Of a stretch of 43,675 bases of DNA, positions 5,462 through 29,188 are shown one piece after another. The DNA is from a virus. The first letter of the stretch is position 1; each line of letters begins with the position of its first letter. Below the pieces are notes generated by a model that did no database searches, had not been told where the DNA came from, and worked only from the letters and a program-made list of their open reading frames with translations. Location of the stretch: the IMG/VR virus record IMGVR_UViG_3300024259_000067, positions 1 to 43,675 of that record; one strand, 5' to 3'. The position numbers and the translations under genes were made by a program.

Positions 5462-6829
5462 TCAAAACAGTCTCATTTGAGTTGGGCGCGGTGGATACCC
5501 CTTGATCGGCTTCGACAGATAATGTTTCCGTCCCCACCCTGATCCGGTGGTGCGTCTGGCTGCGGCTTCCCATCGTGGATTAATATGACCTAGCAGCGTA
5601 CACGCAATATCTCTGACATCACTGTCACGGTGTTGGATAAACTTCCACAGAATAGCAGCCGCATTGGGTTCCCCCGATCTACCGATACACCAAATCGCTA
5701 TTTTTTGCTCCAATAGATTCGGGCTAAAGATTGCCAATTCGACCAGAGATTGAAAAGGCATGTTAGACAAAACGTAGTCAGTCAATAACTCGACATGGTA
5801 TTGCCCTTCCCATTCCTGCCAATCGGCAATCTCCGCAAATTCCCGTGCTGGGCGATAAAATCCTAATGTCGATACACCGGGCTTGCTATTCACTGCCAAA
5901 ACAGGTGCCGGAATAGTCGAAGGTTTGCCAGCGATCCAAGCTGCAAGTTGTTCGGGAGCGACATTGAAGCCCAGCCCTCTTGGACCACGCCTACCGTTAT
6001 ATTCTCCGGTGTTGATAACGCACAGCATATTACCGTGCCGTCCGGCGTTTGGTGAGACAATCTCTATCACCTGTCCAGCGCGTGCTAGTTGATCTTTTGC
6101 CCGATAATCTGTTTTTGAACGCCCCTTCAACGGCTGCATCCCGCGTGGGAATTCCTGAAACATTTGACCATCAAGAAGAGGGTCTGTCCCCGGTTTATTG
6201 CCGGAGCTTTGCTTGTAGAAAAACGCAGTATCATATTTGCGGCACTGGGTACGGATGTTACGTGCCCACTCTTTGTCGAATGGTCTGCGCCCTGCCCCGC
6301 TCTCTGCACCAACGATAGCCATGTCGATGCCGGTGAGATCGACTTCGCCCACATCTCCGAGCAATGGCTCGAAGCTGATGAACTTAGTAGCTGCCGGTAT
6401 CTGGCGCAGATAATCTATGCGCCAGGTGTAGTCTTCGTTTTCGACTGTTGTGCCCATCCAGAGGTTATCCGGCCACGCCAGGTATGGGGCAAGGTGCAAT
6501 ACACGCTCAATTCGTTTGGTCAACATCTGGAATTGCAGATCAGGACGTTCGTAAGCTGCGAGATTATGGACACGGTGAATCCACTCGACAGGCATTTGCT
6601 CATGATACTGGTCATACATGTCGCCGACGAAGACGAACGCGCCGGTGGGGATGCTACGCAAATCCTTGATGGAGTTAGCCCTCCACACCGGGCGATCTGC
6701 GGCATTGGCTGCCCAGCGTTTCGCCATTGGGAACATGTAGCAGTTCTTGCATCCTGGCGAGGTCTTCGTACAGAACCACTTTATGAAATTCTGGCTCCAA
6801 TCTGTCCACGCAATTGCAGTTTTTCCCAT
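5462..6829 (-). CDS. DUF5131 (phage Gp37/Gp68-like) protein with C-terminal extension
   Basis: The N-terminus has the hallmark of DUF5131: AIAWTDWSQNF and TSPGCKNCYMFPMAKRW, with Cys about 20, 27 and 30 suited to a radical-SAM-like Fe-S or metal site. FVGDMYDQ, MLTKRIER, GTTVEN and ISFEPLLGDVG then follow in family order. The usual family length is about 230-300 residues. Here about 200 extra residues follow, including ELAIFSPNLLEQKIAIWCIG and RDSDVRDIACTLLGH, which look like HEAT-type helical repeats. The start at 6829 overlaps the initiator stop (TGATG). The enzymatic reaction of the family is not established. Confidence 0.85.
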   Translation of the reverse strand: MGKTAIAWTDWSQNFIKWFCTKTSPGCKNCYMFPMAKRWAANAADRPVWRANSIKDLRSIPTGAFVFVGDMYDQYHEQMPVEWIHRVHNLAAYERPDLQFQMLTKRIERVLHLAPYLAWPDNLWMGTTVENEDYTWRIDYLRQIPAATKFISFEPLLGDVGEVDLTGIDMAIVGAESGAGRRPFDKEWARNIRTQCRKYDTAFFYKQSSGNKPGTDPLLDGQMFQEFPRGMQPLKGRSKTDYRAKDQLARAGQVIEIVSPNAGRHGNMLCVINTGEYNGRRGPRGLGFNVAPEQLAAWIAGKPSTIPAPVLAVNSKPGVSTLGFYRPAREFAEIADWQEWEGQYHVELLTDYVLSNMPFQSLVELAIFSPNLLEQKIAIWCIGRSGEPNAAAILWKFIQHRDSDVRDIACTLLGHINPRWEAAARRTTGSGWGRKHYLSKPIKGYPPRPTQMRLF

Positions 6830-8157
6830 CAGGCACTTCTCGCTAACTGTTTCCATAACGGCTCGTCATTTCCCGTCTCTGTTTCGCTGGCGAACTGTCG
6901 GACTTCAAAGCGCAACTCTGTGTCTTCTCCGCGCACATCGCTGAGGACGCGGCGGATGTTACGGTAGAGACGATGCTGAAGCATTTCTCGAACATAATCA
7001 TTACGCACGGCAATCACAAACACGCCATCCTCGCAGCCGATCACCTGAGTGCCGCGCAGCCAGGTGTCAAATGTTTGACGATCAAATTGGAGTTCAAGCT
7101 GGGCGTAGGCTGATTCCCACTGGTTTGTAATCTGTGGATCGGCTTCCGGCAACGGTGGCAATTCTGGCTTTGGCTGTGGTGCCGGTGGTGTTTCTTCTTT
7201 TGGATTCGGCGCGTAGTCCTCTGGTGATTTGGGGCTGTACGATTTGATAAAGTCGTTCAGTGTTTGCCAACCGTTGCTGACAATATCCCAGGTCAGGTCC
7301 TGTTCGTTGTTTTTCAATTCGTCGCGGACAAAACCTGGCGGATTGTTGATTGACTTGCCTTGAGCACATTTGACTGTGGCAAAGAGGCGTTCCAATTCGT
7401 GGTTGTGGCGGATGGTCAGATCGCGCCCAAGTTTCGGTGCAATATTCACATCTTTAAGGGCATTGACTGCGGCCTGTTGCTTTGGCGAAAGCTCAATTTC
7501 TTCGGTAACGGAAGTACCTTTTTTAACAGCAGCAACATCTTGTTCGTTTGAATCCGTTTGTAAAGAGTCTTTACCGTCCAAATTTTTGGCCGGGGTAGTC
7601 AAAAATTTAGACCACCCTTTTTTGACCGCAATATCCTTCTGACTGCCATTCCAGAGTGTGACTTCTGCGCCCTGCCCCATCAACCGATAGATATTGATCT
7701 CGTTGGACTTTGGACCGGAGCTTTCGCGCTTGACTTTGACGATACCCATGTCCTCTAATAGTTGCGTATGGGTAATGAGCGCCTGTTTGCTTAGGCTTGT
7801 TTCCAGGGACAGGTCGTTTAGGCTGATTTCGAGTGTGTTTGTGTGACGATTAATCAGCGCGGCAATGGTTGCATAGAGCCAGCCAGTAGATGTCGTATAT
7901 CCTTTTTCATGAGCAATCTTGCCCACGATTAGTTTGCGGGTGGTGTTTGCTATTTTGCCGTAGGTTGGTCCGGTGTAGGGTTGGTCCGGTACGATTGTGG
8001 TTGTCACGATTTGATGATCGACCAGGCACAACAGTGTGTCTGATGTTGCGTGGAGCTTCATCGCTACCCAAATTGCGGCGCGACGAAACACGTTTTTAAC
8101 AAAATTCTCATATTGCGATGCCTGTATTTCTGTCGGAGTCTTAACGTTTGTTACCAT
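6829..8157 (-). CDS. Replication initiator: winged helix plus C-terminal DnaA-N-like domain
   Basis: Residues about 90-160 (TSTGWLYATIAALINRH, SLETSLSKQALITHTQLLEDMGI) form a winged-helix DNA-binding region like plasmid and phage initiators. A Pro-rich linker (APNPKEETPPAPQPKPELP) leads to a C-terminal block: ITNQWESAYAQLELQF, FDTWLRGTQVIG, FVIAVRNDYVREML and YRNIRRVL. This block follows the DnaA domain I pattern, the domain that in DnaA contacts the replicative helicase. Its likely role is to bind the phage origin and recruit host DnaB. No AAA+ ATPase part is present. A small RNA is encoded opposite its leader. Confidence 0.8.
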   Translation of the reverse strand: MVTNVKTPTEIQASQYENFVKNVFRRAAIWVAMKLHATSDTLLCLVDHQIVTTTIVPDQPYTGPTYGKIANTTRKLIVGKIAHEKGYTTSTGWLYATIAALINRHTNTLEISLNDLSLETSLSKQALITHTQLLEDMGIVKVKRESSGPKSNEINIYRLMGQGAEVTLWNGSQKDIAVKKGWSKFLTTPAKNLDGKDSLQTDSNEQDVAAVKKGTSVTEEIELSPKQQAAVNALKDVNIAPKLGRDLTIRHNHELERLFATVKCAQGKSINNPPGFVRDELKNNEQDLTWDIVSNGWQTLNDFIKSYSPKSPEDYAPNPKEETPPAPQPKPELPPLPEADPQITNQWESAYAQLELQFDRQTFDTWLRGTQVIGCEDGVFVIAVRNDYVREMLQHRLYRNIRRVLSDVRGEDTELRFEVRQFASETETGNDEPLWKQLARSA

Positions 8158-12643: not shown

Positions 12644-12661
12644 AGTATAGCACATGTGTTC
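12644..12661 (-). promoter_or_regulatory. GAAC-N4-GTGC-TATACT promoter, leftward
   Basis: GAAC (12661-12658), ACAT, GTGC, TATACT (12649-12644). It is one of six intact copies in the genome and lies just before the HTH regulator gene. Confidence 0.75.
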
Positions 12662-12721
12662 ATTATTTGTAACAAAGGTTTGCGAATTATAACGATTACC
12701 ACATGCAAACTGTTGTTTGTG

Positions 12722-13045
12722 TTACTCAGGCGATTGTTGCTGCCCTTGCATAGCAGCCAGCATCTCGGCGTGTTTCTTTTCTTTGTCGATCCCAACGCCG
12801 TTGCGCCAGCCCAATAATGCAAAGAGGAAGAAGAACGGCATCGTCATGCAGAAGATCATGCTAACTCCTAGGCCGGTCCCAATGTCTGCTCCGACCTCAT
12901 ATGCCTCTTGTTGCGCTGAGGTGCGGGATTCGCTGCCTTCGGTTTTTGTTTGTTCATTAATATCACCTGCTGCCGACATCCAGGCGGCCATGAGTAATAG
13001 GGTCAATACTGCTAATGTCCAAAATAACCGTTTACGTAATTTCAT
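12722..13045 (-). CDS. Small two-helix membrane protein (107 aa)
   Basis: A basic start (MKLRKR) precedes a hydrophobic helix (residues 8-26), then a polar loop of about 30 residues (TKTEGSESRTSAQQEA) and a second helix (56-80, very Phe/Met-rich). A charged C-terminus follows. GGAGGAG before ATG 13045 and a TATACT promoter at 13083-13078 support it as its own leftward transcript. It could be a superinfection-immunity, holin-like or membrane-anchor protein; nothing in the sequence decides. A weak hairpin at about 12664-12718 may terminate the transcript. Confidence 0.75.
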   Translation of the reverse strand: MKLRKRLFWTLAVLTLLLMAAWMSAAGDINEQTKTEGSESRTSAQQEAYEVGADIGTGLGVSMIFCMTMPFFFLFALLGWRNGVGIDKEKKHAEMLAAMQGQQQSPE

Positions 13046-13077
13046 AAGCTCCTCCGTTGAGCGATGAATATGTTAAA

Positions 13078-13087
13078 AGTATAGCAC
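13078..13087 (-). promoter_or_regulatory. GTGC-TATACT promoter of the small membrane protein
   Basis: Read leftward GTGC-TATACT, an extended -10 identical in core to the other phage promoters but without the GAAC block; the upstream bases are T-rich. The first transcribed base would lie about 25 bases before ATG 13045. Confidence 0.6.
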
Positions 13088-13203
13088 AAAAATACAAAAT
13101 AATAGTGAACGTATGTTTTGGATAGGGTTTGGGTTGTTGGACGAACTATTTTGGAATTCGGAAATAATTCGTATGTGCTGTAAATTCACCAAAGGTTCCT
13201 TGA

Positions 13204-13350
13204 TATAATTAGGTTGGGCAAGGCGGCATTGCTTGCCCTGCCTCGTGATACTGTGGAAGGTGAACGAGGTTGTGCGTAGGTAGGCCGCTTTGCCCACCTG
13301 GACATGCTACGATCTGTTGTTTAGGTAGTAATGAAGATTGTAGCATGTTC
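13204..13350 (+). ncRNA. Candidate structured RNA in the regulatory gap before parA
   Basis: A TGA-TATAAT extended -10 (13201-13209) is followed by strong paired segments. GGGCAAGGCGGC (13216-13227) pairs with GCCGCTTTGCCC (13284-13295), one mismatch. CCTCGT (13241-13246) pairs with ACGAGG (13264-13269). A 14-bp stem of 13302-13315 with 13335-13348 has one G-U pair. GGGCAAG can also pair with CTTGCCC (13232-13238), so two folds compete. No coding frame fits. It may be a regulatory RNA or a partition or origin site. I see no gene elsewhere in 13088-13697. Confidence 0.5.
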
Positions 13351-13596
13351 TGCTGTTTCCTCACGTTCTATTTTAATTTCAATCTGGTTATAATTTCGGT
13401 TCACGTTGGCACAATGGTAAGTAATCTATCGTAATAGTCGCCTTCTGTGAGTATTAATAAATGAGTGACGCTAAGTTAATGCCATGAATTAAGTGGAATA
13501 ATAAGATTAATTTGTTGGATTTCACCATGTTGTTAAGAGATGACCGTCGTGGATATTTGGGTGAATAATGGTCGAAAATCGGTTATAATATGATTA

Positions 13597-13625
13597 CAAT
13601 AAAAAACGCCCTGGTGGACAGGGCG
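13597..13625 (-). terminator. Leftward rho-independent terminator upstream of parA
   Basis: Read leftward: CGCCCTG, loop TCCAC, CAGGGCG, then TTTTTTATTG. The stem is perfect (7 bp) and the U tract lies only on the - strand. It would stop leftward transcripts entering the regulatory gap from the par side. Confidence 0.8.
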
Positions 13626-13697
13626 GCAGGACGGCGAAGGGCGCGTCTTGCGAATACAGTATAATCTAAAATGTTAAAACTAGCGAAGGGAAAACTT

Positions 13698-21541: not shown

Positions 21542-21781
21542 GTGGACCACGAAGAGATGCAGAGTCTAGCAGATGCGATACAAGCGTTGGCGGCTGACAT
21601 ACAGGAGGCTTTCGGCAAGACGGAAGAGGGTCCATTGCCGACTGAACGTGAGGAGTGGGAAAAGGTAAAGTCAACACGTCCGCCGACACATCACATGCCA
21701 TGTACTGTCCGCCCTGTATACCATCGCCGGTTAGAGCGTGGTCGCAATGGTAGTCATCTGGATCGGAGAGGGAAAGAATGA
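21542..21781 (+). CDS. Hypothetical 79-aa protein between portal and glycosyltransferase
   Basis: GTG start with AGGAG eight bases upstream. The acidic helical N-terminus (EEMQSLADAIQALAADIQEA) is followed by a basic Pro/His/Arg-rich C-terminus (RPVYHRRLERGRNGSHLDRR). The stop overlaps the glycosyltransferase start (ATGA). No family is recognised. It could be a small head component or a helper of the following genes. Confidence 0.65.
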   Translation: MDHEEMQSLADAIQALAADIQEAFGKTEEGPLPTEREEWEKVKSTRPPTHHMPCTVRPVYHRRLERGRNGSHLDRRGKE

Positions 21782-22578
21782 AAATACACATAGTCGTTGT
21801 AGCCTATGGGCTGCCGGAAGACACCGAGAAGTTGCTGGCGTGCAAGCCAGCCGTCAAAAAAAACTATAATAAATTTCACTGGCATTTGTTTTTGCACAGC
21901 CAGATTACGGAAGTAGTCGCCGTCTGTGAGAAAGCCGCGAAGCGCAAGAACGTGACCTATTATCCATATGGCACTAATCGCGGACTGGCGAAGTCGTGGA
22001 ATGAAGGCATTTTGGCAGGTTATGATGCCGGTGCAGACGTTGTGATCGTCTCCAATGATGACATGATGCCCGGACCTGGCGACATCGAGACTGTGGCCGA
22101 AGCCGCTATGAAGCAACGCGAAGAGGGACAATTGATTTATCTCGTTGATGCTCAAATGTATGACAAGCGCCAGGATGCCCACATTCCCAGCACTTGCGGC
22201 TTCTTCGCTATCCAACCACTTGCACTAGAGACCATCGGCATGTTTGACGAACAGTTTTTCCCTATCTATTTTGAGGATAGAGACTACGAGCATCGCGCCA
22301 GGGTTTCCGGTCTGCATAGATTCACGGTAATGGATACCGGCTTGGTTCACATGGGAAGCGGCAACATCTCTACGCTGCCTGATCTTCAAGAACAAAATCA
22401 CCAGACGTTTGAAGCCAATAAAGCGTATTACATCAGGAAGTGGGGCGGTGAGCCGGGACGTGAGAGGTTCAGGCAACCGTTCAACGATATACGCTTCAGC
22501 ACCAGGATCGCTATCTCTGACAGTGAACGTCCATACTGGGGCTATGAGCGCGAAGACCAGGAGATCGCCAAGATATGA
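21778..22578 (+). CDS. GT2-family glycosyltransferase
   Basis: GT-A pattern: IHIVVVAYGLPEDTEKLL, TNRGLAKSWNEGI (69-80), the metal-binding VIVSNDDMMP (Asp94-Asp95) and a C-terminal acceptor region GMFDEQFFPIYFEDRDYEHR (Glu166-Asp167). At 266 residues this matches short rhamnosyl/GT2 enzymes. It probably transfers a sugar from a nucleotide donor onto a phage protein or host glycan. It sits between portal and MuF genes, linked to both neighbours by 4-base overlaps. Donor and acceptor are unknown. Confidence 0.85.
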   Translation: MKIHIVVVAYGLPEDTEKLLACKPAVKKNYNKFHWHLFLHSQITEVVAVCEKAAKRKNVTYYPYGTNRGLAKSWNEGILAGYDAGADVVIVSNDDMMPGPGDIETVAEAAMKQREEGQLIYLVDAQMYDKRQDAHIPSTCGFFAIQPLALETIGMFDEQFFPIYFEDRDYEHRARVSGLHRFTVMDTGLVHMGSGNISTLPDLQEQNHQTFEANKAYYIRKWGGEPGRERFRQPFNDIRFSTRIAISDSERPYWGYEREDQEIAKI

Positions 22579-23141
22579 CATTCACCGATGACCAGCAGAA
22601 AGCGCAGCCTCTTTTGGAGCAACATGGGATTATTATCGCCCCAGAAGAAATCAACCATGATACATATATCGAGTTGTCTTGGGCGCTCAGGATAGGCAGA
22701 GAGTTACATCCAGCGCAGCCTCTTGAATTCCGATGCTGTGGGGTAGGTGGAGAGTCATCCCGGTCATTTGCTATATACGATTTAGTTCAACAGGACGGCA
22801 ACATTGATGGAATAGCACTGGGGCGCGTATCCAGTGGTCACTCGATTATATGGAGTGGCTGTAATCGCAGATTCGTGTATCCAACCGCAATGGTCAGCGT
22901 CCATCAATCTAAAAATGGGTCGTGGCAACAAGGGCAAGTCCAGCGAGATTACGAATTAGGGTACGAACAAACCAAATGGACAAATAGTCGGCTCGTTGAG
23001 ATTTATGAAAAAGTGTCTAATCAAGGGGCTGATTACTGGCACGATAAAGTGTTTGGCGCAGGTATGGAGCTTTTCAACATCGACGCTAATCAGCTTGTCG
23101 AGTTGGATATGGCGAAACCTATTTCGGAGCGTGCTCTATGA
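22575..23141 (+). CDS. ClpP-like serine protease
   Basis: A ClpP/crotonase-like core: PLEFRCCGVGGESSRSFAIY (oxyanion GG), IDGIALGRVSSGHSIIWSGC (candidate catalytic Ser86/Ser87) and VYPTAMVSVHQS (His110 as the catalytic His). Residue context fits ClpP (GQAASMG and MIHQ). The third catalytic Asp is not obvious. At 188 residues it has normal ClpP size. A separate prohead protease exists at 25545, so this one may process another virion or glycan-linked protein. It has overlapping starts with both neighbours. Confidence 0.8.
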   Translation: MTFTDDQQKAQPLLEQHGIIIAPEEINHDTYIELSWALRIGRELHPAQPLEFRCCGVGGESSRSFAIYDLVQQDGNIDGIALGRVSSGHSIIWSGCNRRFVYPTAMVSVHQSKNGSWQQGQVQRDYELGYEQTKWTNSRLVEIYEKVSNQGADYWHDKVFGAGMELFNIDANQLVELDMAKPISERAL

Positions 23142-24145
23142 AACAGATACTCGTCACCGGCGGATTCGGCTTCATTGGTGGTCATCTGATTGAGCGATTG
23201 TTGGATGACCCGAACAATCATGTGCATGTGGTCGATAATCTGAGTAGTTGTCCGATTCCCTATCCCCTGTTGATCGACGAGTTGGAGCATCCACCTAATT
23301 TGACGTATGAAACAATTTCGATCTGGGAGTTTTTTCACATTAGCTCTAAAAATCTGTGTGTGTATGACGAAATCTATCATCTCGCATCGCCTGTCGGCCC
23401 GGCAGGTGTCTTGCAGCACGCAGGGCAGATGATAGGCAATGTCGTTGACGATATTTACCTACTGATTAACCTCGCGTTGCGTGAGGATGCCAAGCTGGTT
23501 GATGTGTCCACCAGTGAAGTGTATGGTGGTGGCGCTGGCGGATTGTGCGCGGAAGGGCTTGATAAGATCATTTCTGCCGATACTACCGTGCGCCTGGAAT
23601 ATGCCATTGCAAAGCTGGCGGCAGAGACAGCGATCATCAATACCTGTAAGGTCAATCCGTTGAGAGCTTCGATTGTCCGTCCGTTCAACGTGGCCGGTCC
23701 GCGTCAGAGTGGGGTAGGCGGTTTTGTGTTGCCGCGTTTCATTGACCAGGCTATGCGCGGTGAGCCGTTGACCGTGTTTGGAGATGGCAACCAGGTCAGA
23801 GCGTTTACCCATGTTGCTGATATTGTGGATGGTCTGATACGGGTTATGGAATCCGGGCAATCTGGAGAAGCGTACAACCTGGGCAATCCGATCAATAAGA
23901 CGAGTATCAATGAAATGGCTAACCGGGTGAATGACATCACCGGCAACCAGGCTGGTGTTACCTATGTTGACCCGAAGGATATATTCGGGGACCTGTATGC
24001 TGAGGGCGCGGAGAAGTACCCAGACGCGAGGAAGGCTATCTCCGAACTGGGATGGTCGCCTAAATACGGAATTATCGCAACCATAACCGATGCACTCAGG
24101 TATCAGAAATCATGCAATACATTGACGGCAGCAAAAACAAGCTAA
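23138..24145 (+). CDS. NAD-dependent sugar-nucleotide epimerase/dehydratase
   Basis: Extended short-chain dehydrogenase: nucleotide site TGGFGFIGGH (7-16), acidic HVVDNLSS after strand two, VDVSTSEVYG (121-130), catalytic Y155-x3-K159 (YAIAK), RPFNVAGPRQ and a C-terminal FGDGNQVRAFTHVADIVDG. This suits UDP-glucuronate decarboxylase or dTDP-glucose dehydratase type enzymes that modify nucleotide sugars. It probably supplies the donor for the two phage glycosyltransferases. It is coupled to the ClpP-like gene and overlaps the MuF-like gene by 34 bases. Confidence 0.88.
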   Translation: MKQILVTGGFGFIGGHLIERLLDDPNNHVHVVDNLSSCPIPYPLLIDELEHPPNLTYETISIWEFFHISSKNLCVYDEIYHLASPVGPAGVLQHAGQMIGNVVDDIYLLINLALREDAKLVDVSTSEVYGGGAGGLCAEGLDKIISADTTVRLEYAIAKLAAETAIINTCKVNPLRASIVRPFNVAGPRQSGVGGFVLPRFIDQAMRGEPLTVFGDGNQVRAFTHVADIVDGLIRVMESGQSGEAYNLGNPINKTSINEMANRVNDITGNQAGVTYVDPKDIFGDLYAEGAEKYPDARKAISELGWSPKYGIIATITDALRYQKSCNTLTAAKTS

Positions 24146-25278
24146 GAACCCGCGTCAAGCCATTTGCGAAAGATGTGCGTGAAGCCCTCTTGCCAACAGT
24201 GGATAGCATACGTGGCACGCTGCTGCGATCTGCCAGGTCAGACGAGCGTATTGACCCCAGAGATAAAGAACAAATCCAGGTACAAGTTGGTGACGCTATT
24301 CAGCGCGGCTTCGTTGGCCCGAATTTACGCAGTCCATTTGGTCAGGATGGTGTAACACCACTCGCCCCTTATCCCCGCCTACTCAATAAATGGTATGCCA
24401 CAGTCGTTATTGAAGCGATCAATGTCCATCACAACTGGATGAAGCGGCACGTACCAACAGACGTATTTGAGTGGTTATCCAATCAACAGACACCCTCCGA
24501 CAACCTGATAATTGGCGAGAACGAGTTTCTGCGCCGTCCAGATGAGCCGTATGAAGTGTTTCTCAGTAGGATGGATGACCTGCGGGTGTTCCGTCCGAAT
24601 CCCCTGGCTGTGTTAGACCCGAAACGCCGGTGGGTGCCAATGCACAGATGGAATACACCAGACGGCTACCGTCTCAGTGACAGGGTGTGGGAGACTAGCG
24701 TTCACGCCCGTACTCAGATTGATAAGGTAGTGGGGCAGGGCATTCGTGAGGGATGGTCAGCGTTACGTATTTCCAGGGCCGTTGAGCAATATCTGCTCCC
24801 GGCTGAACTTCGACGCATCACCCGCAAGCCTTATGGCAGCCGAGCAATCTATTCTGCTATGAGACTGGGGCGAACGGAAGTTGCCAGAGCCGCTAATCAT
24901 GCTGCATACACCGCCGCATACCTTAACCCATATGTCAATCAGATTGACGTTGCACGATCAACTGCTGGCGATCCTACATGCCCGATCTGCCCCCAACACG
25001 CGACTATTGGTCTGGGCGGTGGGCGTTTGCGCGAACCCTATTCAATAACTAGCGCGGACCTGCCGGTTTACCATCCACATTGCATGTGTCATGTTCGTCC
25101 AATCGCGGAATCCCCTGCTGCTGTGACCGCCAGGATCAGAGCCGTTATGGGTGATGCCGAAAGCATTTATCTGGAGCCGGTGCTGACACCCGCCGCTCGT
25201 GAAACATTTGTTTCACAGATGCTTGGATTGGCTATGATGCGAATTTTGCCACAGATATTGCAACACCCCCTCATATAG
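24112..25278 (+). CDS. MuF-like head morphogenesis protein (SPP1 gp7 type)
   Basis: The C-terminal part holds the MuF zinc-type motif: DPTCPICPQH and PVYHPHCMCHVRPI. It is preceded by the helical IYSAMRLGRTEVARAANHAAY segment seen in MuF proteins. The N-terminal half is helical and unassigned. Such proteins are minor head components, bound to the portal and often ejected. The position after the portal, with the sugar cassette in between, matches SPP1-like order. Confidence 0.85.
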   Translation: MQYIDGSKNKLRTRVKPFAKDVREALLPTVDSIRGTLLRSARSDERIDPRDKEQIQVQVGDAIQRGFVGPNLRSPFGQDGVTPLAPYPRLLNKWYATVVIEAINVHHNWMKRHVPTDVFEWLSNQQTPSDNLIIGENEFLRRPDEPYEVFLSRMDDLRVFRPNPLAVLDPKRRWVPMHRWNTPDGYRLSDRVWETSVHARTQIDKVVGQGIREGWSALRISRAVEQYLLPAELRRITRKPYGSRAIYSAMRLGRTEVARAANHAAYTAAYLNPYVNQIDVARSTAGDPTCPICPQHATIGLGGGRLREPYSITSADLPVYHPHCMCHVRPIAESPAAVTARIRAVMGDAESIYLEPVLTPAARETFVSQMLGLAMMRILPQILQHPLI

Positions 25279-25299
25279 ACCGCATCTCTTGCCTTGTCA

Positions 25300-25317
25300 G
25301 AACTTATGTGCTATGCT
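25300..25317 (+). promoter_or_regulatory. GAAC-N4-GTGC-TATGCT promoter before the capsid block
   Basis: GAAC (25300-25303), TTAT, GTGC, TATGCT (25312-25317), with a TTGCCT 17 bases before the -10. The transcript would enter the hairpin array at once, making that array a leader of the protease-scaffold/capsid mRNA. Confidence 0.75.
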
Positions 25318-25334
25318 TTCAGGAGTGTTTCGTA

Positions 25335-25487
25335 TCCCTTGCGCGGCAAGGGAACGAATAAACACTCTGCGCGGCAAGGGAACGAATAAACACTCTGCGC
25401 GGCAGGGTGTACGACAGCCTTGCGCGGCAAGGCTAATAAACAAACACCTGCGCGGCAGGTCAAAGCTGTTAAATTTCCGCGCGGCGG
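25335..25487 (+). repeat. Array of six GC-rich hairpins with covarying stems
   Basis: Six copies of the core GC-GCG-GC, each the loop and inner stem of a small hairpin, with flanking bases that differ but still pair. Stem 1 is TCCCTTGC/GCAAGGGA (25335-25353). Stem 3 is CACTCTGC/GCAGGGTG with one wobble (25391-25409). Stem 4 is AGCCTTGC/GCAAGGCT (25416-25434). Stem 5 is ACCTGC/GCAGGT (25446-25460). Stem 6 is CCGC/GCGG (25477-25487). Copy 2 (near 25369) pairs poorly outside the core. Two exact 28-base units lie in tandem at 25341-25396. The rest of the 25279-25544 gap holds only the promoter and a GGAGGAG ribosome site. Confidence 0.85.
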
Positions 25488-25544
25488 GGGTTGGTCTGCA
25501 TAAGTAGATTGATTTCGCCGTGTTTTGTTGCGGAGGAGAGATAG

Positions 25545-26669
25545 ATGATTAAGAAAATTTCAGGCGTGCTGCTTGAAACACAGATGCGAATTTCCGGTAG
25601 TTATCCAGACGTGCCATTAGCTTCTGGCATCAACCTCGAGACGATGATAGAGGGCGATTCTACTCCTGTCTTTGTCACGCTGCCTATTGGCAAGGTTGAC
25701 ACTGAAAGCCGTAATGGACGGAAGTATGACCGTAAGGCTGTTACGTCATTGGTCGAGACGATCAACTCTGAAACAGCTATCGGACAAAAAGGGCATCTGC
25801 GTGACGATGAGCGTGCCTACCGTTTCGACGTTCCCCCTTTGACGTGGGTGGGTGCAACGCTGGAGTCTGATGGTACAGCGTGGGGTAAAGCCTACGTGAG
25901 CCAATCGGCTGCTGATGTGCGCGAGTATGTCAAGATTGCAAAAGCCACCAACGCCAAAATCGGCACGTCCATTTATGGAACTGCTGATGTGGACGATGAC
26001 GGCAATGTTTCCAACCTTCAGATCGAAAGTATTGATCTTGCTCATCCAGGGCGCTTGGGTGTGCCGATGGCTGGGGCAGTGCCAAAAGTTACACAAGAAA
26101 CACTCGAAGAAGACGATATTGAGGAGTCAACCGAAATGCCATCTAAACAAGAACAGGCACCAGAAGCAACTCCCGCGCAGATTATCGAATTGAGACGTGA
26201 ACACACAATCGCTTTCCGCGAAATTGAAGGGCGTGTCGCTGAACTCGAAGGGCAAGTCGCTGACTTAAACACAGTCCTCGAATTGCTGGGCGAGAACGGC
26301 AAGCCTGCCACTGATGCGATTGCTGGCGTTCGTGTTCTGCAAACCAATTTGCAAAATCTGCGTCAGGAAAACCAGGACTTGCTGGGCGAGGCTATTGAGT
26401 CTCAAGTCACCAAGCTCGTCAAGGTTGAAAACGTGCGTGCCATCATAGTTGATATGGTCACGGCTACCAAACCAGCCACCCGTCAGGCAGTCGCTGATGC
26501 GGTACAGGATGTGTTGAGCCGTGAAGCTGTCAAAGTTTTGCTCAAGGACAGCGTGAAGGAAACTATGGGGCCTAACCAGACTCGTCCGAACCAAAAGGAC
26601 GATGAAGATGAGCCAGGTACATCCTCGCCCATCAACATCCCGCAAATTCCAGCTAAGGAGGCCAGCTAA
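25545..26669 (+). CDS. Prohead protease fused to a scaffold domain
   Basis: The N-terminal about 190 residues match the capsid maturation protease pattern, with GHLRDDE (His84) and KIGTSIYG (Ser142) at the usual spacing. A Glu/Gln-rich linker leads to a coiled-coil scaffold (IAFREIEGRVAELEGQVADL and on) and a charged C-terminus. Fused protease-scaffold proteins of this length (374 aa) are common in SPP1/HK97-like heads. It cleaves itself and scaffold during head maturation. GGAGGAG precedes the ATG. Confidence 0.85.
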   Translation: MIKKISGVLLETQMRISGSYPDVPLASGINLETMIEGDSTPVFVTLPIGKVDTESRNGRKYDRKAVTSLVETINSETAIGQKGHLRDDERAYRFDVPPLTWVGATLESDGTAWGKAYVSQSAADVREYVKIAKATNAKIGTSIYGTADVDDDGNVSNLQIESIDLAHPGRLGVPMAGAVPKVTQETLEEDDIEESTEMPSKQEQAPEATPAQIIELRREHTIAFREIEGRVAELEGQVADLNTVLELLGENGKPATDAIAGVRVLQTNLQNLRQENQDLLGEAIESQVTKLVKVENVRAIIVDMVTATKPATRQAVADAVQDVLSREAVKVLLKDSVKETMGPNQTRPNQKDDEDEPGTSSPINIPQIPAKEAS

Positions 26670-28126: not shown

Positions 28127-29188
28127 ATGACCATCGTCAACGTCTGCTCACCCACATTTGATCCCTGCGATAGCTATGGAATACTGGCTACCGAATTGGT
28201 GGACGGTCTTGGGTCGCTTGGTTGGGATGTGAATACGATAGGAAGTAAAGCTCCGAACCGTTCAATTCGCATAGCACCAGGCGGTATTCTGTTAGGATAC
28301 CCGACGCTACACAAAACATATGGCGCAATGAGCAATATTGGGCCAAAGCTGGCGTTGACGATGTTTGAAAGCACTGTGTTACCAGATGGTTGGGTCGATA
28401 GACTGAATAAGTGTGATGCGGTAGTTGTCCCCGCCAGGTGGTTGGTCAGGGTGTTCCGACAGAATGGTGTCGCTGTTCCTATCCATGTCGTTCCGTTGGG
28501 TATCAATGATGTGTACAAGGGATATTCCCCACGCACAAAAAAGACCCCATTCACGTTCATTGCAATTGGTGATCGTGGACTTCGCAAAGCCTGGAACAAA
28601 GTAATATTTGCATTCAACCAGGCGTTTGGCGACAACATGGATTACAGGCTAATCATCAAATCTCGTAATCTTGGAATGTCACTCAACAACCCTAACATCG
28701 AAGTAATAAAAGAAGATTACACGGATGAGCAGATGGCCGCGTTGTATAGACGTAGCCATGTGATGGTGTTTCCTTCATCCGGTGAAGGTTTCGGGCTACC
28801 TCCCAGAGAGTTCGCCGCGACAGGCGGCATATCGCTGGCAACTAATTGGGGCGGTACAGCCGATGACATCAGCCAGTGGGGTATACCACTCCCGTATCAA
28901 ATAGTGGATGCCTGGGATGATAGGTCAGATTGGCGCGGTTCAATGGGACATTGGGCATCAGTCGATCAGGATGACATTGTGCAGGTGATGGAATCAGTAG
29001 CCGCTAATTACTACGGCTCCTATAAATCAATCGGGGCACAGTCAGCCGGGTTTGTCGCAGCCCATTATCGTTGGTCGGTCTTCACATCAAAGATAGCAAG
29101 TATCTGGGAACAAATCGCGGAGGAACAATATGGCAACAGCCACAGCAGAAGAGAGGTCTCGGTTGCGTCGGCAAGCAGGGTTGGATAA
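28127..29188 (+). CDS. GT4-family (GT-B) glycosyltransferase
   Basis: The C-terminal domain carries the retaining GT4 signature VFPSSGEGFGLPPREFAATG, with Glu220 and Glu228 (EX7E), and a preceding NPNIEVIKEDYTDEQMAALY donor region. The N-terminal domain holds SPTFDPCDSYGILATELVDG. At 353 residues it is a typical GT4 enzyme. It lies directly after the major capsid gene and overlaps the connector gene by 59 bases, so it is part of the head operon. Capsid glycosylation is a reasonable inference; the acceptor is unknown. Confidence 0.9.
   Translation: MTIVNVCSPTFDPCDSYGILATELVDGLGSLGWDVNTIGSKAPNRSIRIAPGGILLGYPTLHKTYGAMSNIGPKLALTMFESTVLPDGWVDRLNKCDAVVVPARWLVRVFRQNGVAVPIHVVPLGINDVYKGYSPRTKKTPFTFIAIGDRGLRKAWNKVIFAFNQAFGDNMDYRLIIKSRNLGMSLNNPNIEVIKEDYTDEQMAALYRRSHVMVFPSSGEGFGLPPREFAATGGISLATNWGGTADDISQWGIPLPYQIVDAWDDRSDWRGSMGHWASVDQDDIVQVMESVAANYYGSYKSIGAQSAGFVAAHYRWSVFTSKIASIWEQIAEEQYGNSHSRREVSVASASRVG

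Follow-up and report, generated by a model that had tools for sequence, protein, structure and literature searches.

A singular array of tandem GCG-triloop hairpins ahead of the capsid block in a tailed-phage genome record

A hairpin array between the head and capsid genes

The window, by which we mean the whole stretch of DNA analyzed, is one complete IMG/VR virus record, 43,675 bases long. It carries the late region of a tailed phage, with genes for terminase, portal, head morphogenesis, cement, a capsid-like protein, tape measure, and tail proteins, and it also encodes a ParA-like protein and a DnaA_N-containing replication protein. Capsid protein identity to the nearest relatives found is 44 to 54%. 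Several features lie elsewhere in the record. A candidate replication or partition region of ∼1 kb, noncoding, precedes parA (12655-13670); in it, two imperfect inverted arms (13295-13315 / 13335-13355) are followed by a GC hairpin (GCCCTG-GTGGA-CAGGGC, ∼13608-13625) located some 45 bases upstream of the parA start. On the − strand, the product of 5462-6856 is a DUF5131 protein that matches HEAT repeats weakly and two PADLOC models for candidate defence systems, PDC-M41B and PDC-M30B, at E values of about 1e-60. For the replication-like protein on the same strand (6829-8157), whose DnaA_N domain lies near the C-terminus, phage and plasmid records yielded no relative. Glycosyltransferases, a nucleotide-sugar epimerase, and a ClpP-like protease are encoded within the head-gene block (21778-24145 and 28127-29188); in one relative, L138, a glycosyltransferase-like gene directly follows the capsid gene as well.

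The array occupies a non-coding gap (25278-25545) that separates the head-morphogenesis gene from the capsid-block gene that follows. Six GCGCGGC cores were found there, at 25341, 25369, 25397, 25422, 25450, and 25479, with core-to-core spacings of 28, 28, 25, 28, and 29. All six lie on the + strand, the sense direction of the late genes. Across the window the 7-mer has 18 matches, compared to 7.1 expected. An earlier note, made by a model from the letters alone, had described six GC-GCG-GC cores within 150 bases, and all were recovered (25341-25485); the extent it assigned, 25335-25487, has the correct start, with hairpin 6 running slightly further at the other end. Five of the six copies are true hairpins with a GCG triloop on a stem of 6 to 9 bp, and their stem sequences differ while pairing is kept. 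Judging from the coordinates, 5 to 14 nt separate adjacent copies, and these linkers are partly A-rich.

Positions and sequences of the array and its neighboring elements
Feature	Position	Strand	Details
Promoter-like element	25289-25317	+	TTGCCT (25289-25294), 17-nt spacer, extended -10 TGC-TATGCT (25309-25317)
Hairpin 1, 5'-terminal extension	25323-25367	+	GAGTGTTT pairs with AAACACTC, CGT with ACG, outside the 8-bp stem
Hairpin 1	25335-25353	+	TCCCTTGC-GCG-GCAAGGGA, 8 bp
Exact 28-bp tandem duplication	25340-25367 / 25368-25395	+	TRF, 100% match, 2.3 copies
Copy 2	25368-25376	+	TGC-GCG-GCA only, 3 bp; duplication junction, no independent hairpin
Hairpin 3	25390-25410	+	ACACTCTGC-GCG-GCAGGGTGT, 9 bp, one G.U
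Hairpin 4	25416-25434	+	AGCCTTGC-GCG-GCAAGGCT, 8 bp
Hairpin 5	25446-25460	+	ACCTGC-GCG-GCAGGT, 6 bp
Hairpin 6	25472-25492	+	AATTTCCGC-GCG-GCGGGGGTT, 9 bp, three G.U
Imperfect downstream stem	25483-25520	+	Competitor of hairpin 6; from folding
Shine-Dalgarno sequence of next gene	25532-25538	+	GGAGGAG; mostly paired in the predicted fold
First capsid-block gene after leader	25545-26669	+	374 aa; PHROG_3219 "unknown function"

Copy 2 is explained by the tandem duplication, which comprises two full units and a partial third reaching 25404; the exact repetition of two 28-base units had been noticed before and was confirmed here by TRF. Copy 2 is broken because it lies at the duplication junction, where a left arm from hairpin 3 meets a right arm from hairpin 1. 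Slippage thus made this one copy, whereas in the remaining five, stems of differing sequence still pair; for example, hairpin 4 differs from hairpin 1 by two adjacent compensatory pair changes. We rejected an ancestral two-hairpin unit (hairpins 1 and 3, hairpins 4 and 5): the mutual best similarity of the pairs was suggestive, and their linkers were not significantly alike (391 of 5,000 shuffles).

Upstream of the array, the promoter-like site scored 10 and ranked among the top 38 of 5,707 candidates on both strands of the window; a stricter promoter scan did not return it (8 of 12 matches). The earlier statement that the array follows a promoter is therefore plausible in placement, with the site best described as a consensus match. 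Its extended -10 ends ∼6 bases upstream of the 5' arm, so transcription would be expected to start at about 25323 to 25325; the predicted start of ∼25324 coincides with the 5' arm of extended hairpin 1 (25323). Because the promoter lies just upstream, the array would open the capsid-block mRNA. The first gene of that block is followed by the cement gene (26669) and then the major capsid gene (27048). Its 374-aa product had no Pfam match, and PHROG_3219 was its sole match. The name "protease-scaffold" given to it earlier derives from its location between head morphogenesis and cement/capsid: the capsid-block placement stands, and the name is one of position. Its homologue in L138 (L138:527-841) is longer (436 versus 374 aa), with an extra segment between the parts matching window-protein residues 186 and 185.

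A coding role for the array was tried and set aside: the open frame that spans it (25313-25504, 64 aa) lacks a ribosome site, matches nothing in Pfam, and changes phase across the 28-bp duplication. No intrinsic terminator (hairpin plus U tract) was detected among the six copies on the + strand; hairpin 5 is terminator-like on the − strand alone.

Pairing, covariation, and the invariant core

We compared the pairing of the copies with several controls. With the inner three pairs fixed, true arms extended the stem by a mean of 5.0 contiguous pairs, compared to 1.9 when arms were exchanged between copies. In a Monte Carlo simulation with 200,000 random flank sets, no set attained the observed pair total. 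These controls bear out, for five of the six copies, the previous claim that most flanking stems differ yet pair. In a gapless alignment of the six copies, five of nine stem columns had changed on both sides. The covariation score was 0.489, relative to 0.242 in shuffles, none of which (n = 500) scored as high, and it did not exceed 0.237 once partners were slid by 1 to 3 columns. Since covariation was measured among copies inside one genome and not across genomes, this control indicates structure kept since duplication rather than conservation across phages. Folding of the leader, a check the earlier note had proposed, gave a z-score of -4.1, and no shuffle folded as well. Pairing also depends on the strand: four G.U pairs occur on the + strand versus one on the − strand. 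The earlier note had mentioned a single wobble, against the four found here. Hairpins 3 and 6 are intact solely when read as + strand RNA. The G.U pairs thus favor the + strand, and therefore action of the array as RNA.

These strand-specific pairs bear directly on a DNA-level reading, in which the dyad TGC-N3-GCA would form an operator or a centromere-like array bound by a repressor or by a partner of the ParA encoded at 13671. Regularly spaced dyads do occur in plasmid centromeres, and in the record a gene for a possible partner lies behind a ParA-like gene. However, differing flanks here still pair, with G.U mainly on one strand, and a DNA dyad needs neither; moreover, the array lies 11 kb from parA, and its spacings of 25 to 29 bp are not whole helical turns. 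We regard such a site as very improbable.

The stems and the core differ in how freely they vary. None of the seven core columns varies, compared to 11 of 12 stem columns (p = 1.6e-4). Because these core columns never vary, the loop sequence appears constrained too, unless gene conversion was recent; core invariance could also reflect recent duplication or gene conversion. The proposal that selection acts on structure rather than sequence is therefore upheld in its first half by the arm-swap, shuffle, slide, and sense-strand G.U results, and needs amending in its second, given the invariant 7-nt core. Together, these results support selection for structure across the stems. They also bear on the reading that the array has no function and arose by slippage in a GC-rich palindromic gap. 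The exact 28-bp duplication and the broken copy 2 are what slippage would leave; however, slippage gives identical copies, not differing stems that still pair. Because the stems are compensated, neutral slippage is disfavored, and we give it no more than a slight chance.

In the computed equilibrium ensemble, hairpin 4 alone was near certain (pair probability, 0.91 to 1.0), and arms of hairpins 1 and 2, and of hairpins 5 and 6, re-paired over longer distances. The left arm of hairpin 6 (TTTCCGC, 25474-25480) can pair in the predicted fold with the ribosome-binding site (25530-25536) instead, in which case its right arm joins the downstream stem. This alternative hints at a switch. We give it little weight because a CU-rich arm matching GGAGG at such a length is not rare.

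Occurrence elsewhere and alternative origins

The array was missing from about 25 distant relatives. In relatives L266 and L267, a promoter-like site precedes the same gene without hairpins, and other relatives have coding or unrelated sequence at this place. A covariance model built from the copies, as had been suggested, was run on 26 relatives and recovered no array, returning single weak matches (E, 0.04 to 0.5) of a chance-like kind. The earlier note had weighed the prospect that the array might be absent from relatives and explained by slippage only; the absence was found, and slippage accounts for copy 2 alone. DNA similarity searches of phages and plasmids gave chance matches only (E of at least 0.2). 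A pattern of three spaced cores had 26 IMG/VR matches, which were rejected as GC-rich tandem repeats, mostly in open frames, with no covarying hairpin array. Two looser IMG/VR scans showed no similar array among the matches listed, the pattern of a hairpin plus an AAACA linker had no match in IMG/VR, and a generic hairpin-array scan over 2.68 Mb of loci matched this window alone. No hairpin copies were found elsewhere in the virus record. In another locus, L059:1-110 (− strand), four 30-base tandem units form a CAGC-GCG-GCTG hairpin with near-identical stems and no covariation; this repeat has the same triloop and is unrelated. The array is thus a genuine and unusual RNA structure, so far without a counterpart, and the best reading of its distribution is that it is lineage-specific.

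Absence from relatives is also what would be expected if a cluster of extragenic palindromic repeats had come from the host, landed in the gap, and expanded by slippage, with any leader function secondary. Slippage is demonstrated for the 28-bp unit, and REP families likewise have stems and loops that are short, include G-T pairs, and fall into stem subfamilies (PMC3733652). Against this origin, neither GTAG nor CGTC occurs on either strand of 25319-25500, the virus record holds no Y1 transposase, the six cores share one orientation, no copies were found elsewhere in the record, in the IMG/VR scans, or in phages and plasmids, and a spot directly behind a promoter is unexpected for random insertion. 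The mobile palindrome raised in the earlier note thus finds no support in the record, which has a single cluster in one orientation and no tags, Y1 transposase, or further copies, or in the virus collection, whose scans yielded no other copies; we consider it rather unlikely. If it nevertheless applied, the array would document phage capture of such repeats.

Among 4,227 Rfam families, none scored above its gathering score in the window; the best local E values were 0.1 and 0.84, with scores well short of the gathering thresholds. This bears on two further readings. The hairpins start at the probable transcript start, ahead of a long late block, and their conserved loop and covarying stems recall boxB; the array could therefore be a transcription element, like HK022 put RNA or lambda boxB, that RNA polymerase or an antiterminator reads for read-through of the long late operon. 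However, no N-like protein was identified, Rfam gave no match, and known elements of the put/boxB type have one or two hairpins, not five. Antitermination thus appears quite improbable. The second reading is a decoy RNA against host defence, mimicking either a CRISPR repeat (Racr) or a type III antitoxin (pseudo-ToxI). Both kinds are carried by phages (PMC10651486; PMC3475682), and slippage has been proposed for the expansion of pseudo-ToxI repeats (PMC3475682). However, no Rfam CRISPR-repeat or antitoxin family matched even at E = 5, stem sequence varies between the units whereas mimics copy sequence, and the record showed no ToxN domain match in a search whose control was uninformative. A decoy has, in our estimate, the slimmest chance of the readings considered.

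A proposed leader and its relation to known systems

Our preferred reading, at a probability of roughly 0.45 and hence tentative, is that the array is a cis-acting 5' leader of the capsid-block mRNA that serves as a multi-site protein-binding and/or transcript-protecting element; its partner and its effect on stability or translation we infer. Transcription from the extended -10 would start at ∼25324 and yield a leader of ∼220 nt, in which hairpin 1 and its extension would close off the 5' end of the mRNA, with another four hairpins behind it, spaced ∼28 nt apart. The local hairpins would form first, during transcription, each presenting a GCG triloop that is closed by a C-G pair and carried on a stem free to vary. 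An invariant triloop on varying stems with short linkers, some of them partly A-rich, looks like the repeated recognition site of an RNA-binding factor. A phage or host protein might therefore bind the GCG loops at several sites, such that the capsid transcript would be protected and its use controlled. Hairpin 6 may act as a switch, its left arm covering the ribosome-binding site instead. Against the leader model, the array is known from one genome, and relatives at 44 to 54% capsid identity do without it. The equilibrium fold also favors some of the hairpins and not all, the promoter is a consensus match, and no RNA-binding protein partner was identified.

A bolder version, which we consider possible though doubtful, is that the array represents a novel type of cis-acting phage RNA, a tandem-hairpin late leader whose invariant GCG triloop serves a dedicated RNA-binding protein and gates capsid-block stability and translation, hairpin 6 competing with pairing of the ribosome site. 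Structured late-operon leaders are little described in tailed phages, and an invariant loop on covarying stems gives a testable starting point in the search for a phage regulator that binds RNA or for a host factor recruited by phage mRNAs.

Several known systems share parts of this architecture. CsrB and RsmZ are protein-binding RNAs with several hairpins, one repeated loop motif, and variable stems. The array resembles them in all three respects and differs in having a GCG rather than a GGA loop and in its setting, an mRNA leader rather than a free small RNA. TIGR arrays (PMC12045711) are likewise tandem, with variable, consistently palindromic stem-loops, and occur in phage-associated loci. 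However, TIGR units hold two 8- to 12-nt spacers and boxes C and D, for which the intervals of 5 to 14 nt are too short, and the Tas/Nop-domain families PF01798 and PF02371 were absent from the record in a search whose positive controls matched. Like the array, REPs of the GTAG/CGTC families cluster in intergenic regions and have G-T pairs, stem subfamilies, and stems and loops of small size (PMC3733652). In contrast to these tagged, RAYT-associated elements, whose dispersed copies are often in opposite orientations, the array in this record has no tag, RAYT, or dispersal and keeps a single orientation. The pseudo-ToxI of PhiTE (PMC3475682) is a phage non-coding RNA with repeats that, as here, probably expand by slippage. 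Its units are 36-nt, near-identical pseudoknot repeats, whereas the array consists of covarying simple hairpins. Type III antitoxins of the ToxI family also consist of near-identical repeats; in the array the stems vary, and Rfam returned no match.

The closest mechanism, though one without loop repetition, is that of 5' stabilizing stem-loops, whose prolongation of mRNA life is established for ompA and papA in works cited in PMC3997798. As in those transcripts, a stable hairpin would stand at the extreme 5' terminus of an mRNA for a highly expressed structural gene; the array adds four hairpins and an invariant loop sequence, which a mere stabilizer would not need.
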